23,156 nt of DNA from a virus, in the IMG/VR virus record IMGVR_UViG_3300047553_000646, positions 1-23,156 of that record; one strand, written 5' to 3'. Below, piece after piece: positions 8,333 through 22,801 of the stretch. A model generated the notes under the pieces. The model was not told the origin of the DNA. It was given only the letters and a program-made list of their open reading frames with translations, and did not search any database. Made by a program: the position numbers and the translations under genes. Position 1 is the stretch's first letter. Every line of letters begins with the position of its first letter.

Positions 8333-9565
8333 TTATCGTTGCCAACCTTTAATCACATCAGGCGAAAAGTTCGCATAACTAAATTCCATTCTATCAACTA
8401 GTTTGACGGCACCGCCAGTCAATTCATCGATAGCAACAAAACCCTCAACATTTGTAACTCTGAATCCATTCTTCGTTTTCAAGAATGTCGGGATATGACC
8501 TGCCAAGTTCATTTTATTAATAATCACTTGTTTTGCATTTGCCAGCATGTTCATAAGGTCGAACACTTTAGCAATGTCACTTTGACTGTGCTTTGTGAAG
8601 TAAGTTAGAACCTCATCACGCTCTTGCGTTTTTGAAGTCTTACCTTTTTCACTTTTCAACTTGTCAATTTCAGATTGAAACTTGTCATGAATATAATGAA
8701 ACAAACCTGTTGTGTGAGACTTAGTATTGGTAATTGTTTTACCTGCTTTGATGATAGAATTGTTATATTCTTTCACCAATGCTTTTAGTCTCTCATTATC
8801 TCTTATGTTATTTATAACATCGGCAGGCACAGACTGAAAAATACGACCAATTTCTGACAAACTTGATGTAATTTCGTCTGTTTCTGCTTTTGTGAATGTT
8901 GCGGTTCCTGAGACATTCTGATATGTGGCATCACACATCCAGATGCTAGAAACTGAATTGAATTTTGAAACAATAGACTGTCCAAATGATGCTGACATTG
9001 TTTCAAAGGTGCTTCCTTCATAGACTGTATGCCAAACAACACCGATTTTTGCACTTTGAATTTTCTTTGCAAGAGGGGTATCTGCTGGAATAGCATAGAC
9101 AATTGTGTTTGGATGAAAGGTGATGTATTTTTGACCATCGATAGTTTCGATTTTTTTGTCGTTGGTAAACATCAAATCACCTTGATAGACACCGGATTTG
9201 ATGCCTAGTTTTTTGAATTCTGATAGTGCTACTTTAAACTTGGCATTCAAATCGCCAGAAGTGTCGGCATCAATGTCTGCATTAGTTTTGTATACTTTAG
9301 GATTTTTATTGAATACGCCTTTTTTGGCAATAAAGAATTTGCCATCTGTAGGGTCAATGCCTGCAAAAATCGCAGGAGCGCCATCCCATTTTACAGTAGA
9401 TACAATTTTTGATTTTGAATGACCTGCAAGCATGTCTCGCAAATCACGCAAAAAATTGATTGCTTTGCGAGTTCCTTCAACACCATTATTGAAGATTTCA
9501 TCTTCCACATGTTCCATGTGGGTGTTCTTCTGTTCTTTGATGTAGGTTTTAAGTGTCTGTATCAT
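8333..9565 (-). CDS. covalent nucleotidyltransferase-superfamily (RNA/DNA ligase-like) protein
   Basis: This 410-aa protein resembles a phage family that I recall being listed as DUF6267. Ligase/capping-enzyme superfamily motifs can be picked out. Motif I is STVKWDGAPAIF, with the predicted adenylated Lys59. A motif III-like GVYQGDLMF sits at ~125-133, motif IV VEGFVAID at 373-380, and motif V GGAVKLVDR with Lys388. A long helical insertion (~225-360) separates the early and late motifs. The N-terminal THMEHVEDEIFNNGVEGTRK is the most conserved opening in the family as I remember it. Whether it seals nucleic acid, transfers AMP to something else or is inactive is unknown. It is the first gene after a sigma70-type promoter (9587-9615) with a ~15-nt leader and only weak ribosome binding (AGAAG). 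Confidence 0.7.
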   Translation of the reverse strand: MIQTLKTYIKEQKNTHMEHVEDEIFNNGVEGTRKAINFLRDLRDMLAGHSKSKIVSTVKWDGAPAIFAGIDPTDGKFFIAKKGVFNKNPKVYKTNADIDADTSGDLNAKFKVALSEFKKLGIKSGVYQGDLMFTNDKKIETIDGQKYITFHPNTIVYAIPADTPLAKKIQSAKIGVVWHTVYEGSTFETMSASFGQSIVSKFNSVSSIWMCDATYQNVSGTATFTKAETDEITSSLSEIGRIFQSVPADVINNIRDNERLKALVKEYNNSIIKAGKTITNTKSHTTGLFHYIHDKFQSEIDKLKSEKGKTSKTQERDEVLTYFTKHSQSDIAKVFDLMNMLANAKQVIINKMNLAGHIPTFLKTKNGFRVTNVEGFVAIDELTGGAVKLVDRMEFSYANFSPDVIKGWQR

Positions 9566-13070: not shown

Positions 13071-14339
13071 TCACTCCATAAATTGTTCAAGTGTTTTATA
13101 CTTGGTTGCAAATTCGTAATCTTTATCTTTAGAGAAACACCAAACATTCTCAATAAAGTTTTCTTGTAAAAACTCTGATAGAGTATCTGATTTTTTTGGT
13201 CTCTGTTTCATTTTCATTCCAATCTGTCCTAAGAAATGAAAGTCTTGTTTCATAAAATCAACTAACTCATCACAAACATTATATCTCTTGCCTTTGATAA
13301 CAGGGTCAATGATATTCATCAATATAATTCCATCGTCACTCATCATACCAGAAAAGTTTTTTAATGTCAAGAAGAAAAAATTGTCTCGCCATAATTCATA
13401 TGTGTCGTATCTTTTCCATGATTGTAAGTCTTCACCTTCACCGCCTTTGTTATATAACTCTGTTGCAAAATATGGTGGTGATGTAAAATAGCAATCGAAC
13501 TTGATTGGAATATTTGATAAGTTCAATTCCTCTGATGGTGATTTAAAAATCATAACTCTTTTGGCACCAACGCATTCAAACGCATCACCAAATACATTCA
13601 TCTGTGGCATCTGACCTGTTAAGATTCTTTCATAAGTTAAACACATCAACTTGTAAATTTCAAATGTTGTTTCATTAGGGTCGCAACCAATATAAATCTC
13701 TGTATTAGGTGATGCATAGAAAGCGGCAAGTCTATCACCCCAACCACACGATGTATCTAAAATGTTTTTGGAGTTTGTTGCTTGATATATCGCTTTAGCA
13801 ACATGGGGTTTAAATTGTGTAGCAACATATGAACCTAGTCTAAATGTTGCACGATAAGCACCCATATCAAGTTCTTTTGTTCCCATGCGCCATAAAGTCC
13901 AATTCAAGTTCTTCAACTTCTCTTTATCTTTCCAAATGTCTATTGGCGCTTCTCTATTATATCCTGCACATTGATATCTAACCGCCTGCATAAAATAATT
14001 AGAAACATCATTGTAATGATGCCCTAATTGAATGGTAAACAAACCAAAGTCTTTATATGGATACTTGTAATCAGAAAATTTCTCCATACACTCAACATCA
14101 TGCATATAATAATTGATGCAATCATCAGCACAAAAAGAGCGAAACTTTTCGGCCATGTCATTGAATGAAATTTTTCTAAAAGGAAACTTCGCTTGACCAT
14201 CTACAATGATGTTAGCAAGTTCTTCTTTTATTTCGTCTTTAGAATGTTTTTCATTCAACTCTTTCCATTCTGTTTCATTCAGAATAGGAAGATTGTATTC
14301 ATTCAATTTAGAATTTAAATAATCATGCAAAGAAGTCAT
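13071..14339 (-). CDS. DNA methyltransferase, amino type (N4-cytosine or N6-adenine)
   Basis: This 422-aa protein contains an S-adenosylmethionine-dependent methyltransferase core. Motif I is ILDTSCGWGDRLAAF (~193-207), followed by YIGCDPNETTFEIY. The catalytic motif IV is CYFTSPPYFATELY, with SPPY at 287-290. SPPY is most common in N4-cytosine enzymes but also occurs in N6-adenine enzymes. The N-terminal ~190 residues are unassigned and helical, and could form a target-recognition or phage-specific domain. It sits between gp43 and uvsX, overlapping the polymerase end by 17 nt and ending 3 nt before uvsX. That placement suggests methylation of newly made phage DNA, perhaps against host restriction. 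No partner nuclease gene is visible, so it behaves as an orphan enzyme. Confidence 0.82.
   Translation of the reverse strand: MTSLHDYLNSKLNEYNLPILNETEWKELNEKHSKDEIKEELANIIVDGQAKFPFRKISFNDMAEKFRSFCADDCINYYMHDVECMEKFSDYKYPYKDFGLFTIQLGHHYNDVSNYFMQAVRYQCAGYNREAPIDIWKDKEKLKNLNWTLWRMGTKELDMGAYRATFRLGSYVATQFKPHVAKAIYQATNSKNILDTSCGWGDRLAAFYASPNTEIYIGCDPNETTFEIYKLMCLTYERILTGQMPQMNVFGDAFECVGAKRVMIFKSPSEELNLSNIPIKFDCYFTSPPYFATELYNKGGEGEDLQSWKRYDTYELWRDNFFFLTLKNFSGMMSDDGIILMNIIDPVIKGKRYNVCDELVDFMKQDFHFLGQIGMKMKQRPKKSDTLSEFLQENFIENVWCFSKDKDYEFATKYKTLEQFME
13342..13370 (-). promoter_or_regulatory. internal sigma70-type promoter with extended -10
   Basis: On the minus strand TTGACA (13365-13370), a 17-bp spacer and TGG-TATGAT (-10 at 13342-13347) lie within the methyltransferase coding region. 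The predicted start is near 13335, ~270 bp upstream of uvsX. The -35 is perfect, the -10 matches 5 of 6 and TGn is present. No experimental support is available here. Confidence 0.55.
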
Positions 14340-16878
14340 CTAATGTTGCTACCTGTTCAATTTGCCAACCAACGCAATTACACATTGTTCGCAAAGGTTC
14401 TAGAAAAGATTTATTAAATTGTGTTTCATAATCAACATAATCGTGCAAATTTAATTCTTTTGGAATTTGATTGATGAATGATATCACATTTTCTTTAATC
14501 GGATTAGGCATCTTCAAATAAAGATACTTGATTTTCTCACCCTCTTTAATTGGATTATATTTCTTTTCAAGTTTCTTTTCTTTGAGAATATGATTATGTA
14601 GTAGGGCACCACGAACATGAAATGGTGTTCCTTTCGTGTAGATTGAAACACTAGATGAATATTTGTCAATACCATTTACTGAGCGAGGGAAAGCAACTTC
14701 TTCAGCAGGAAGACTAAAAAACTCATCTTTAGTTTTTTCAATAAATTCAATCAAAGCATTGTTATCTTTCTCTAGAATAATTTCAATCGCTTGTGTTAAC
14801 ATTTTACGAACAGGCGCAGGCGTTGATGATTTAACAGTCTCAAGACCAGTAATCTTCAATTGAGGTTCAGAATAACGAACACCTTCGTTGTCATACACAT
14901 TTAATGCATATCGTTTCTTTGCAGTCCAGAAACCACGATTGGCAATGCTCTCTCGTTTCATAAACATTTTTTGAGAGTAAGCATTAATATATTCTGCCAA
15001 GGCAGTATACTCACCATCAATCACATTTTGTAATTTACCTTCACAAACTTTATCTAAGAAATCAACAACTACTTTATGTTCAGGAATATTATCACCATAA
15101 ACTTTTTCGACAAACTTTTCTAGTGTGATATACAAAGAATCTGTATCCATTGCAATCACATAATCAACATCATCTGTTGCAAGAATTTTATTCAGGTATC
15201 GATTCATGCCATTCATAATCCATTGAATAGACAACTGCCCCGCCATTGTGATACCTTCTGCTTGGCGAATATCAAAGAATCTAAAATACTCATTACCTAA
15301 CGCACCATAAGCAGAGTTCAATCCAACTTTCTTCGCCAACTGTAGATTCTTATACTTAGCAATCTCAATTACATATTTTGCATCTTTTGTTTCTTCATAT
15401 TTCTTTTGTGCCTCAATCATTTTCTTTTTATAAATGACACGACCATCATACATCTTTTGCATAATCTCAGGCAAGAAACCTAGAATATCTGTTCGAAAGA
15501 ATTGACCATTTGGTGTTAGAGTAACTTGTTCAGATGCCAACACACTTGTATCAACTTCTTGCGAGAGCAATTTGTCAACATTGACGCCTGAAGAAATAAG
15601 ATTACGCAATGCTGGTGTATAGTCTTTTGGTTCAACCAATGTCTCTGGTGAGATATTGTATTGCATAATCAAATGTGGATAAAGACTGTTCAAGTCAAAA
15701 GAAACAACCCAATCAAATTTACCAATTTGCGGGTCTTTAACAAACGCACCTTCATATTGCGTATCTTTATCGTTTGTTTTCTTTGGTGGAATAATAATAT
15801 TCTTTTGCTTCAAATGATTGTAGGTAATTGTGTCCCACATTCTCACTTGAGAAAACACATCGTCAATATTTGTTTTGTTGTCGTAGGCAAGAGATAGTGC
15901 CATAGAAATCAATCCATTTGCTTTCTTACCTTTCACATTAATCATCTCAACAAGTTCAACATCTCGAATGTTATACTCAATATATTTTTGAAAATCTCTT
16001 GTGTATAAATCATGCAATGAATCAAACTCATCATAATTTAATTTAGCACCGACACCTTCTACTTGTGCAATATGGTCAAGTCGATAGGTTTCTTGTGAAT
16101 AGTTTGGCGCATATTTTCTGAATAACTGCAAGTAGTCAAGTATAGCAATACCAACAACATCATAAAATTTAATTTCACGATTATAAAAGTTCTCCGATTT
16201 TTGATGAATAATATTCCAAGGCGAGAATTTTCTCGCTTCATCTTCGCCAAGAATTCTTATTGTGCGATTGACAAGATAATACATGTCAAACCCTTTAACA
16301 TTCCATCCAGTCAACACATCAGGATAATTGTCTGTCCAATAAGTTAAAAACTTTTTTAGCAAATTATATTCATCGTCACACTTAATGTAATCAACATCAT
16401 CACGGTGTGGAACATAATCACCACAACCGAATGTAACGAAACGACCAACTTTAGACAGTTTGATTGTAATTGCAGTTACAGGTTCTCTCGCATATTCTGG
16501 TTCAGGAAATCCATTGTCTGAGTTAACTTCAATATCAACATATGCAACATTGATATCAGAAATATTCCAATCAATTACTTCTTCTTTGTGTTGTTCTGAA
16601 ATAAAAACATATTCAAATTTTGTATTACCAAAAATGCTGAACCCATCAACATTTTCATAATTCTTTACAAATTCTTTTGCTTCTTTAATAGAATCAAACT
16701 CAACAGGTTCAAGAATTTGACCGTTGAGTGTTCTATATTTGCTTTGTGTTTTTTTCTTGCTGTTTAGAAATAGAGTAGGTTTGAATTCTACTTTTTTCTT
16801 TACTGGTTGACCGTTTTCAATCCCACGGTAGTAAATATAATTTCCAAAGCAACGAACATTAGTATAAAATTTTGTCAT
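14323..16878 (-). CDS. 43: DNA polymerase, family B (T4 gp43)
   Basis: This is an intact 851-aa replicative polymerase with proofreading exonuclease (T4 gp43 is 898 aa). Exo I is VAYVDIEVNSDNG (Asp115, Glu117), Exo II is TGWNVKGFDMYYL (~190-202) and Exo III is YNIRDVELV (302-310). Polymerase motif A is SFDLNSLYPHL (Asp395), motif B KKVGLNSAYGALGN (516-529) and motif C IAMDTDSLYI (Asp578, Asp580). The C-terminus ATLDDFFA resembles the clamp-binding tail of T4 gp43, which docks on gp45. The start ATG overlaps the Sm-like gene stop (ATGA), so translation is probably coupled. No intron or split is seen, unlike some relatives. Confidence 0.97.
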   Translation of the reverse strand: MTKFYTNVRCFGNYIYYRGIENGQPVKKKVEFKPTLFLNSKKKTQSKYRTLNGQILEPVEFDSIKEAKEFVKNYENVDGFSIFGNTKFEYVFISEQHKEEVIDWNISDINVAYVDIEVNSDNGFPEPEYAREPVTAITIKLSKVGRFVTFGCGDYVPHRDDVDYIKCDDEYNLLKKFLTYWTDNYPDVLTGWNVKGFDMYYLVNRTIRILGEDEARKFSPWNIIHQKSENFYNREIKFYDVVGIAILDYLQLFRKYAPNYSQETYRLDHIAQVEGVGAKLNYDEFDSLHDLYTRDFQKYIEYNIRDVELVEMINVKGKKANGLISMALSLAYDNKTNIDDVFSQVRMWDTITYNHLKQKNIIIPPKKTNDKDTQYEGAFVKDPQIGKFDWVVSFDLNSLYPHLIMQYNISPETLVEPKDYTPALRNLISSGVNVDKLLSQEVDTSVLASEQVTLTPNGQFFRTDILGFLPEIMQKMYDGRVIYKKKMIEAQKKYEETKDAKYVIEIAKYKNLQLAKKVGLNSAYGALGNEYFRFFDIRQAEGITMAGQLSIQWIMNGMNRYLNKILATDDVDYVIAMDTDSLYITLEKFVEKVYGDNIPEHKVVVDFLDKVCEGKLQNVIDGEYTALAEYINAYSQKMFMKRESIANRGFWTAKKRYALNVYDNEGVRYSEPQLKITGLETVKSSTPAPVRKMLTQAIEIILEKDNNALIEFIEKTKDEFFSLPAEEVAFPRSVNGIDKYSSSVSIYTKGTPFHVRGALLHNHILKEKKLEKKYNPIKEGEKIKYLYLKMPNPIKENVISFINQIPKELNLHDYVDYETQFNKSFLEPLRTMCNCVGWQIEQVATLDDFFA

Positions 16879-17171
16879 TTAGGAATCGCTGTAGCAATCT
16901 GAATACCTGAACCGAACATTCTGTTATAATTGTTTACCAAATCAATAACAGGTTTAGTTTTAAAGTATAAATGAGTTTTGCTTACAACGAAAGACTTTTC
17001 TTCGGAAAATTGTGTCCAAGGCAACATCTGAACATTCATTGTTCCATTTGCTTGCGGAATAGTTAAAATGATGGCAGGTTTGCTTACTGTAATTGTTGTG
17101 TCAGTTTCGTTTTCTAATTCGGCAAGAACATCTTCTCCGCCAACGAATCTGAATAGATATAGTTCGTTCAT
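16875..17171 (-). CDS. Sm-like small beta-barrel protein (putative)
   Basis: This 98-aa protein opens MNELYLFRFVGGEDVLAELE, which looks like the Sm1 strand pattern (an 'L..G..V.G.L/E' turn). It continues with TITVSKPAIILTIPQ, MLPWTQFSEEKSFVVSKTHL and a tail LVNNYNRMFGSGIQIAT. I recall relatives in T4-like aquatic phages annotated as Sm-like, with the same 'PAxI.I......PW..FSEEK.F...K' and 'L...YNR.FG.GI' pattern. Sm/Hfq-type proteins bind RNA, but that function is not shown for this branch. The start ATG is 5 nt downstream of GGAGA. It directly follows a terminator/promoter pair and precedes gp43 with an ATGA overlap, so it may act on or be co-regulated with polymerase. Confidence 0.6.
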   Translation of the reverse strand: MNELYLFRFVGGEDVLAELENETDTTITVSKPAIILTIPQANGTMNVQMLPWTQFSEEKSFVVSKTHLYFKTKPVIDLVNNYNRMFGSGIQIATAIPK

Positions 17172-17187
17172 ATTATCTCCATTAAAT

Positions 17188-17214
17188 AAAAAACCGAGGC
17201 CTTTTAGACCTCGG
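17188..17214 (-). terminator. intrinsic terminator after the Hsp20 gene
   Basis: The minus strand reads CCGAGGTC - TAAAA - GGCCTCGG followed by six T. It forms an 8-bp stem with one G-U pair, a 5-base loop and a U-tract. It starts 18 bp after the Hsp20 stop. A promoter just upstream (17218-17246) would start RNA inside the 5' arm. Confidence 0.9.
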
Positions 17215-17217
17215 TGT

Positions 17218-17246
17218 ATTCTACATCACTTGTTATTTTTTGTCAA
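17218..17246 (-). promoter_or_regulatory. sigma70-type promoter nested against the terminator
   Basis: On the minus strand TTGACA (17241-17246), a 17-bp spacer and TAGAAT (17218-17223) overlap the last codons of the Hsp20 gene. The expected start, a purine at about 17211-17212, falls within the 5' arm of the terminator stem (17207-17214). It would drive the Sm-like/gp43 unit. Confidence 0.6.
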
Positions 17247-17769
17247 TAGCAAGTTCATCTTCAGTCAAAAATTGCTTAGGATTATCTGCCGCAAACTCTG
17301 AGACTGTAGAACCTTCATCTGCGATATCAATCTTGCGTGACTTCTTTGATTCTGGAATAATACGCTCTAAGAAAACTTTAAGCATACCATTAATCATTGA
17401 AGCACCTTGAACAACAATTTGGTCATCAACAGCGAAACTACGGGTAAATGCTCTTGTTGCAATTCCTTTATAGAGAAATGCTTGAGTATCATCTTTTGTC
17501 TCACCTTTGATAATCAATCTATCATTCTCAAGAGTGATTTCAATGTCCTGCTTACCAAAACCTGCAACGGCAAGTTCAACAACATATTTGTTTTCTGCTT
17601 GCTTGTAGATATTATAAGGAGGATAATTAGGAATGTTTTTTGTCAACTCATCGTGCAACTTTGCCATCTTATTAAATTGGTCTTCGAAACCAACAAAGAA
17701 TTTGTCAAAGTCTTTAAATGCGTTTGGATGCAAAAGTGCATCAGGGACAAATTTAGTTAATGAGTTCAT
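17233..17769 (-). CDS. hsp20: small heat shock protein, Hsp20/alpha-crystallin family
   Basis: This 178-aa chaperone would hold unfolding proteins in an ATP-independent way. The alpha-crystallin domain spans ~50-150: PPYNIYKQAENKYVVELAVA, GFGKQDIEITLENDRLIIKG (the typical 'AGF.K.DI.I...N..L.I.G' pattern) and the signature INGMLKVFLERIIPE with NGML at 127-130. The N-terminal arm carries MNSLTKFVPDALLHPNAFKD and the C-terminal tail is charged. Hsp20 is a known cargo of T4-like cyanophages and other aquatic phages, presumably aiding folding of virion proteins late in infection. GGGAGG lies just before the ATG. It follows the phasin-like gene by 13 bp and is closed by a strong terminator, so the two form a small unit. 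Confidence 0.9.
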   Translation of the reverse strand: MNSLTKFVPDALLHPNAFKDFDKFFVGFEDQFNKMAKLHDELTKNIPNYPPYNIYKQAENKYVVELAVAGFGKQDIEITLENDRLIIKGETKDDTQAFLYKGIATRAFTRSFAVDDQIVVQGASMINGMLKVFLERIIPESKKSRKIDIADEGSTVSEFAADNPKQFLTEDELAIDKK

Positions 17770-18027: not shown

Positions 18028-18053
18028 AAAAAATGCTACCCCTAAGGCGTAGC
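18028..18053 (-). terminator. hairpin with U-tract between regA and the phasin-like gene
   Basis: The minus strand reads GCTACGCC - TTAG - GGGGTAGC then ATTTTTT. It is an 8-bp stem with one mismatch plus a T-run. It probably terminates the clamp/regA transcript, yet lies downstream of the late promoter at 18120, so it may be a leader structure for that transcript. Confidence 0.65.
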
Positions 18054-18073
18054 GGTTTATTGGTGTTTATTGT

Positions 18074-18095
18074 CTGGCACACCTTTGAAAGCCAG
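18074..18095 (-). other. GC-rich hairpin in the phasin-like gene leader
   Basis: CTGGC pairs with GCCAG around a 12-base loop on the minus strand, immediately upstream of the terminator-like hairpin. No U-tract follows. It may be part of a folded 5' leader. Confidence 0.4.
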
Positions 18096-18119
18096 TTCCC
18101 ATCCCGAGGGGAATAAAAT

Positions 18120-18127
18120 TATTTATA
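18120..18127 (-). promoter_or_regulatory. T4-type late promoter, TATAAATA
   Basis: The minus strand carries an exact TATAAATA octamer, the -10 recognised by T4 late sigma gp55 with gp45/gp33. It overlaps the regA stop codon and sits ~118 bp upstream of the phasin-like start. It is correctly oriented and mostly non-coding, and fits late expression of the phasin-like/hsp20 pair. Confidence 0.6.
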
Positions 18128-21167: not shown

Positions 21168-21428
21168 TTAAGCGGCGAATGCGCTGTCACCAAGAACTTT
21201 ATGTGCGACAGAAACCATTGAACGAGTTGGGCGACCAGAACGGTATTCGACCGACTGCGAACCCTTGCGTGGGTTACTGTAGATGCAATAACCTTTTTGG
21301 CGTAGGTCATAGATTCGGGCGCTCATACGCTCAACACCGAACATGCTTTGTGCTTGTTTGGCGGTTAGAGTTTTACCTTCTTTAGAAAAGAAAGATTCAA
21401 GTTTCTCTAGTTGAGTTTTATTTGACAT
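21168..21428 (-). CDS. small helix-turn-helix protein (putative regulator)
   Basis: This is an 86-aa protein from ATG 21428 (MSNKTQLEKLESFFSKEGKT), chosen over a TTG nine bases upstream because TGGAGA lies 9 nt before it. The helix-turn-helix is at ~22-50: LTAKQAQSMFGVERMSARIY, then DLRQKGYCIYSN as recognition helix and wing. This 'T..QA...FG......RI.DLR..G..I' pattern is that of small phage winged-helix proteins (HTH_39-like). The tail (VEYRSGRPTRSMVSVAHKVL) is basic. It stands alone between hairpins and its own terminator, so it may be strongly and separately expressed. A DNA-binding regulator or a small nucleoid protein is plausible; targets are unknown. Confidence 0.75.
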   Translation of the reverse strand: MSNKTQLEKLESFFSKEGKTLTAKQAQSMFGVERMSARIYDLRQKGYCIYSNPRKGSQSVEYRSGRPTRSMVSVAHKVLGDSAFAA

Positions 21429-21465
21429 AATTATCAATCTCCATATTGAAATACCACGATGTAAT

Positions 21466-22772: not shown

Positions 22773-22801
22773 ATTATATCGCACTTCCACACATTTGTCA
22801 A
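22773..22801 (-). promoter_or_regulatory. consensus sigma70 promoter for cobS
   Basis: On the minus strand TTGACA (22796-22801), a 17-bp spacer and TATAAT (22773-22778) match the host vegetative consensus exactly. The start would be near 22766, leaving a ~25-nt leader. A TATAAATT (22760-22767, 7 of 8 to the late octamer) overlaps the start region. Confidence 0.9.

Follow-up and report, generated by a model that had tools for sequence, protein, structure and literature searches.

How can a phage keep two neighbouring transcription units apart when the promoter of the second appears to be laid over the terminator of the first? This question is raised by the junction between hsp20 and the DNA polymerase gene gp43 in an uncultured T4-like phage (IMG/VR virus record IMGVR_UViG_3300047553_000646). 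The window, i.e. the whole stretch of DNA analysed, is 23,156 bp long. Its T4-type replication genes (gp45, gp44, RegA, hsp20 and gp43) each match their own phage family, and the minus strand carries nearly all genes of the window as well as the whole promoter/terminator element. Read along that strand, the order of the elements is TTGACA, 17 bp, TAGAAT, hairpin, T-tract, GGAG, the ATG of an Sm-like gene and gp43. An earlier note on this DNA had pointed out the two hexamers with their 17-bp spacing and the terminator stem, without naming the strand, and all of them are present. The features are as follows.

18120-18127, minus strand: T4-type late box TATAAATA, preceding the phasin-like/hsp20 unit; exact (8/8), kept in relatives
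17233-17769, minus strand: hsp20, the gene upstream of the putative terminator (PF00011, phrog_432)
17241-17246, minus strand: -35 hexamer TTGACA, 6/6 matches, within the final hsp20 codons
17218-17223, minus strand: -10 hexamer TAGAAT, 5/6 matches
17210-17212, minus strand: predicted transcription start A17211, alternatives G17212 and G17210, placed 6-8 nt past the -10 hexamer
17193-17215, minus strand: putative terminator hairpin ACCGAGGTCT-AAA-AGGCCTCGGT, 10 pairs, -15.4 to -16.0 kcal/mol
17188-17193, minus strand: T-tract TTTTTT of the putative terminator, read directly from the sequence
17177-17180, minus strand: Shine-Dalgarno GGAG of the Sm-like gene, 5-nt spacing to the ATG, outside the hairpin
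16875-17171, minus strand: Sm-like ORF, 98 aa, first gene past the putative terminator (phrog_527, E 1.9e-14)
14323-16878, minus strand: gp43 DNA polymerase (phrog_262, 1044 bits)

The Sm-like ORF begins with the ATG at 17171 and overlaps the start of gp43. Its label is to be read with a Pfam Sm_like score below the curated cut-off, and PHROG 527 is a family of unknown function.

The hairpin after hsp20

The stem contains ten pairs, six of them G-C and one G-U, and is followed by TTTTTTATTTA. A GC-rich stem with a T-tract directly after it is the form of an intrinsic (Rho-independent) terminator, and the hairpin at 17215-17193 ranks first in the terminator list of the scan tool. The sole stronger hairpin on the minus strand is located at 21498-21470 (-16.7 kcal/mol). 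The hairpin is thus very likely a terminator, judged by its sequence and fold. The earlier note was right about the presence of the stem and too short in its length, eight pairs instead of ten, and the gap between the -10 hexamer and the stem is 2-3 nt rather than four.

The earlier note also assumed that hsp20 belongs to a late unit. In agreement with this, the phasin-like/hsp20 pair is preceded by an exact TATAAATA late box, which is kept in relatives and in many of them lies ~1,020-1,040 bp before the Sm-like ATG. The label "late" for hsp20 is therefore a reasonable reading of the sequence.

Conservation among relatives

The junction was compared with IMG/VR loci, using the best 80 hsp20 loci, 46 gp43 loci and 14 Sm-like loci. 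Among the best 80 loci, hsp20 identity is 60-79%, same-population contigs excepted, and the Sm-like proteins of relatives are 23-39% identical. Two matching IMG/VR contigs belong to the population of the window itself (2 differences in 8.5 kb) and thus give no test of conservation.

A terminator is predicted 16-24 nt before the Sm-like start in 30 of the 58 distinct loci that carry this gene, i.e. in the window lineage and in 29 others, and the stems in these loci have several different sequences. In addition, S-CRM01 has an annotated Rho-independent terminator after hsp20. No promoter was found at the homologous place in any of the 29 divergent relatives with the terminator; the best start-in-stem sites there reach 6-8 of 12 matches, with a mean of 6.8 compared with 7.0 at random positions. 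The putative terminator is conserved and the candidate promoter is specific to the window lineage. As the scores in the relatives match those at random positions, nothing points to selection for keeping promoter and terminator together, and the idea of a conserved device has to be given up.

Three loci (L115, L117 and L119) have the same junction of hsp20, terminator, sigma70-type promoter and gp43. However, their promoter, TTGACT-17-TATAAT, lies past the terminator, which is the usual order and unlike the window, so the RNA need not pass the hairpin. Early-type promoters (TTGACA-17-GATAAT) are found ~1.6-1.8 kb upstream in relatives, and the simplest answer for gp43 transcription in the promoterless ones would be read-through of a leaky terminator from such upstream early-type promoters.

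Between hsp20 and the terminator, many relatives (L024, L031, L041 and others) also carry a small ORF of ~26 aa that ends in a KHKAERFK-type sequence. This ORF is missing from the window lineage, whose hsp20 stop codon thus adjoins the terminator.

Searches with the DNA itself gave little. The 1.7-kb region had no match by DNA similarity among 50,697 phage records, and the 101-bp core gave weak partial matches and nothing more. The window had no match in Rfam, and allowing E values up to 1 gave only chance-level hits. When IMG/VR was searched for a pattern that combines this promoter with a CCGAGG stem, only two contigs came back, both from the population of the window.

The predicted promoter

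The -35 hexamer is contained in the final hsp20 codons, ATT GAC AAA AAA TAA. Together, the two hexamers match at 11 of 12 positions with a 17-bp spacer, scored against the TTGACA/TATAAT consensus, from which the preference of the host RNA polymerase may differ. Sites with at least 11/12 matches occur five times on the minus strand, compared with 0.67 expected from dinucleotide shuffles, and not once on the plus strand, where 0.77 are expected. When a 17-bp spacer is demanded, the minus strand has four such sites against 0.27. At this threshold, the coding strand of the window thus holds ~7 times as many sites as expected by chance and the opposite strand holds none, and it is therefore likely that the site studied here is a real sigma70-type promoter. 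Its hexamers, its spacing (16-18 bp being usual for this class) and the excess over chance all agree with the assignment.

At the threshold of the scan tool, at least 9/12, there is nearly no enrichment (65 sites against 57.9 by chance) and therefore only the strong sites are informative. If strong sites occurred at the shuffled density, one of them would start in the 5' arm of a particular terminator with a probability of ~3 in 10,000, a figure that overstates the case because the site was picked from many features.

Two further promoter-like sites were noticed in the window. A perfect 12/12 promoter, TTGACA-17-TATAAT, is located at 22773-22801 on the minus strand ahead of a CobS-like gene, with a TATAAAT box directly after it. 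A 10/12 site at 9615-9587 is found shortly before an ORF starting at 9565.

Folding of the two kinds of RNA

The predicted start A17211, 7 nt past the -10 hexamer, falls inside the 5' arm (17215-17206), which is where the earlier note had placed it. Distances of 6 and 8 nt would give G17212 and G17210. The RNA was folded with its 3' end fixed at the U-tract and its 5' end varied. The hairpin has an energy of -16.0 kcal/mol in RNA arriving from hsp20, -9.7 kcal/mol in RNA started at 17212, which retains seven pairs, -5.2 kcal/mol in RNA started at 17211 and -4.7 kcal/mol in RNA started at 17210. The folding thus supports a large loss of hairpin stability in self-started RNA.

The position of the remaining stem matters as well. 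Intrinsic termination requires a stem that abuts the U-tract, and with a start at 17211 three unpaired bases (CGG) separate the stem from it. As the stem is both weakened and stands off from the U-tract, escape is plausible from the starts 17211 and 17210 and doubtful from 17212, whose RNA might still terminate, at least partly. The escape postulated in the earlier note is therefore backed by the folding for the two inner starts and weakened for the outer one. All three starts (17212, 17211 and 17210) give folds that pair from the first nucleotide when the RNA ends at the U-tract; in a longer fold of the 17211-started RNA the stem shifts. The GGAG at 17180-17177 lies outside the hairpin in the read-through RNA and in the self-started RNA.

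The earlier note regarded the element as an insulator that lets the two units abut without interference. The layout contradicts this, as the terminator (17215-17188) lies downstream of the -35 and -10 hexamers (17246-17218), and polymerases coming from hsp20 would cross both before stopping. In a transcriptional insulator the terminator lies upstream of the protected promoter, and here it does not. The arrangement would block read-through RNA, yet not interference with the promoter.

Comparison with known systems

In the protection of IS10 and IS50, transcripts entering from outside adopt a structure that is denied to the element's own transcript, which begins within it. This protection acts on the translation of transposase in a mobile element, unlike what is proposed for the hairpin in the window.

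In T4, the genes e, soc, 49 and I-TevI have a late promoter inside an mRNA hairpin (PMC3014915, PMC2988022). Read-through RNA folds into the hairpin, by which its ribosome-binding site is concealed, and the self-started RNA is without the structure (PMC3014915, PMC2988022). The window resembles these cases in that it comes from a T4-like phage, has its promoter in the DNA of the 5' side of the hairpin with the predicted start A17211 inside the 5' arm, and would give two classes of RNA told apart by their 5' end. However, the inner promoter is late in the T4 cases, while in the window it is of sigma70-type and the incoming RNA is late. Further, the T4 hairpins hide the ribosome-binding site, whereas the hairpin in the window is followed by a T-tract and leaves the GGAG at 17180-17177 free in read-through RNA. 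Translational sequestration was rejected on the folding, with the Shine-Dalgarno sequence free of the hairpin. A literature search found no paper on a phage promoter inside an intrinsic terminator, and absence there is no proof.

Promoters nested in hairpins in other T4-like phages

The loci of the relatives contain 117 terminators in 424 kb, and the sole nested case is that of the window's own lineage. Across 14 T4-like genomes (2.1 Mb) with 521 terminator-like sites in total, a start inside such a hairpin is predicted for four promoters with at least 10/12 matches. At 11/12 or better, two starts inside hairpins were seen, compared with about one expected by an estimate from the counts. Nesting in these 14 genomes is rare and not clearly above chance. 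A hairpin is present at the start of 19 of 301 strong promoters, against 41-61 of ~300 at shifted positions, and this depletion rules out a general tie of strong promoters to start-site hairpins. A start within a terminator is an occasional arrangement and not a conserved module.

Two of the four nested cases are credible as terminators in their context. In S-CRM01, between g292 and g293 (L215:17889-17936, ~177089-177136), a promoter TTGACA-17-TAGAAT overlaps a terminator hairpin, with TAGAAT as the loop of GACTCCTC-TAGAAT-TGAGGAGTC-TTTTTT, GAGGAG in the 3' arm and an ATG directly past the T-run. In the IMG/VR genome G003 (L162:17287-17375), TAGACT-17-TATAAT lies over a terminator-like hairpin of -19 kcal/mol at the junction of cobS and a small gene. 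The small gene resembles a winged-helix ORF at 21168-21437 of the window, where a hairpin-T site is present too (21498-21470). Both cases share with the window a sigma70-type promoter over a terminator-like hairpin directly before a gene. However, both are at non-homologous places, and the details differ: in S-CRM01 the -10 hexamer is the hairpin loop and the predicted start is at the 3' end of the hairpin, and in G003 the hairpin spans 34 nt, with the predicted start 9 nt into it. On the minus strand of another locus, L174 of the IMG/VR genome G004, the -10 hexamer of a strong promoter lies in the loop of a hairpin with an energy of -21 kcal/mol. As GGGAG lies in the 3' arm, this looks like the RBS-hiding arrangement of T4 e and I-TevI, with a sigma70-type promoter.

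A structured leader downstream of the late box

The late box is followed by a conserved structured leader that precedes the phasin-like gene or hsp20, in the window at 18028-18127 on the minus strand and in relatives at L007:2550-2663, L019:3620-3767, L030:1991-2139, L131:1270-1394 and others. It consists of GGGATGGGAAC, a possible H-type pseudoknot, a hairpin with GCCTTCGGGG and then CTCGCTT. The leader occurs with an exact TATAAATA in 36 distinct sequences; others are without it, and some relatives have CTAAATA. It is also found once each in G007, G005 and G002, with a close variant in G006. The leader RNA had no match in Rfam.

The pseudoknot can form in the window by pairing of CUGGC/GCCAG and GGUGU/ACACC, and 5 of 500 shuffles are as good. 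L007 and L029 appear by eye to be able to form the same shape with other letters, in L007 by pairing GUAGUUA/UAACUAC and GUCGG/CCGAC; a script search gave none there. The last hairpin of the leader and its T-run (18035-18053 of the window, minus strand) are weakly terminator-like, at -9.1 kcal/mol, and sit between the late promoter and the gene that this promoter is expected to drive. An attenuator, a small RNA or a plain leader hairpin are all possible.

Proposed mechanism and alternatives

We suggest that the late phasin-like/hsp20 unit would end at the hairpin at 17215-17193, its putative intrinsic terminator at a conserved place, and that the window lineage may have acquired a host-sigma (early-type) promoter directly on this terminator, with the start in the 5' arm. 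RNA entering from hsp20 would form the full hairpin beside the U-tract and mostly stop. RNA started at 17211 or 17210 would lack the outer four to five pairs, and the weak remaining hairpin would stand 3-4 nt from the U-tract, so that this RNA could run on into the Sm-like gene and gp43. Late polymerases from hsp20 would also cross the promoter, and the arrangement would then both stop read-through and occlude the early promoter; the element would then act as an early-on, late-off switch rather than as an insulator. From the elements, the computed energies, the conserved terminator and the promoter confined to one lineage, we infer promoter activity, the start site, termination, escape and occlusion. 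Differential escape is physically plausible from the folding, and the comparison of relatives lends it no support. We give this combined mechanism, a conserved hsp20 terminator with a lineage-specific start-in-stem early promoter and differential escape, an even chance of being correct.

The promoter-like sequence could instead be fortuitous. The hairpin would then only end hsp20 transcription, TTGACA would be a by-product of the C-terminal codons of hsp20, and gp43 would depend on read-through or on initiation elsewhere, which has to be the case in the relatives. The 29 relatives with a terminator and no promoter, the position of the -35 hexamer within the codons ATT GAC AAA and the near-chance number of sites with at least 9/12 matches all favour such a reading. 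It has to be set against an 11/12 match at 17-bp spacing that lies on the coding strand immediately before a gene, and against the ~7-fold enrichment of sites this strong on that strand with none on the other; we consider it somewhat unlikely. If transcription began at 17212 or upstream, at least seven pairs would form, and the hairpin could act as a promoter-proximal attenuator, where part of the RNA stops at ~25 nt and the hairpin dampens its own promoter too. The seven-pair stem of -9.7 kcal/mol would allow this. However, the usual 7-nt spacing leads to 17211 and -5.2 kcal/mol, and the stem is set back from the U-tract in every truncation, which makes the attenuator distinctly unlikely.

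The truncated stem could also serve as a stabiliser that guards the gp43 mRNA from +1 against 5'-end-dependent decay, with termination only secondary. Pairing from the first nucleotide in the folds that end at the U-tract, from all three starts, would suit such a role. The 17211 stem is however weak and shifts in the longer fold, and the T-tract and the conserved terminators of the relatives favour termination as the main role, so we regard the stabiliser as highly improbable. A translational switch of the T4 e/soc/49/I-TevI type, in which only read-through RNA would have its ribosome-binding site covered by the hairpin, has the same start-in-5'-arm geometry described for T4 (PMC3014915, PMC2988022). 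With the GGAG outside the hairpin in either RNA and the T-tract directly after the stem, we find it barely credible.

Implications

If the combined mechanism is wrong, the junction is an ordinary terminator with a promoter-like sequence nearby. A further reading, which we put forward tentatively as less likely than not, is that of a start-gated terminator, a single 60-bp element where the choice of termination or elongation would depend on nothing but the place at which the RNA begins. Late hsp20 RNA would stop, early gp43 RNA would pass and late transcription would shut the early promoter by crossing it, and the choice of start among 17212, 17211 and 17210 could tune the output of gp43. If the combined mechanism is right, the junction would offer synthetic circuits a compact part that keeps two transcription units separate. 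It would also mean that the T4 promoter-in-hairpin trick has moved from translation to termination, and that a phage can build an early promoter into a terminator already in place while adding hardly any DNA.
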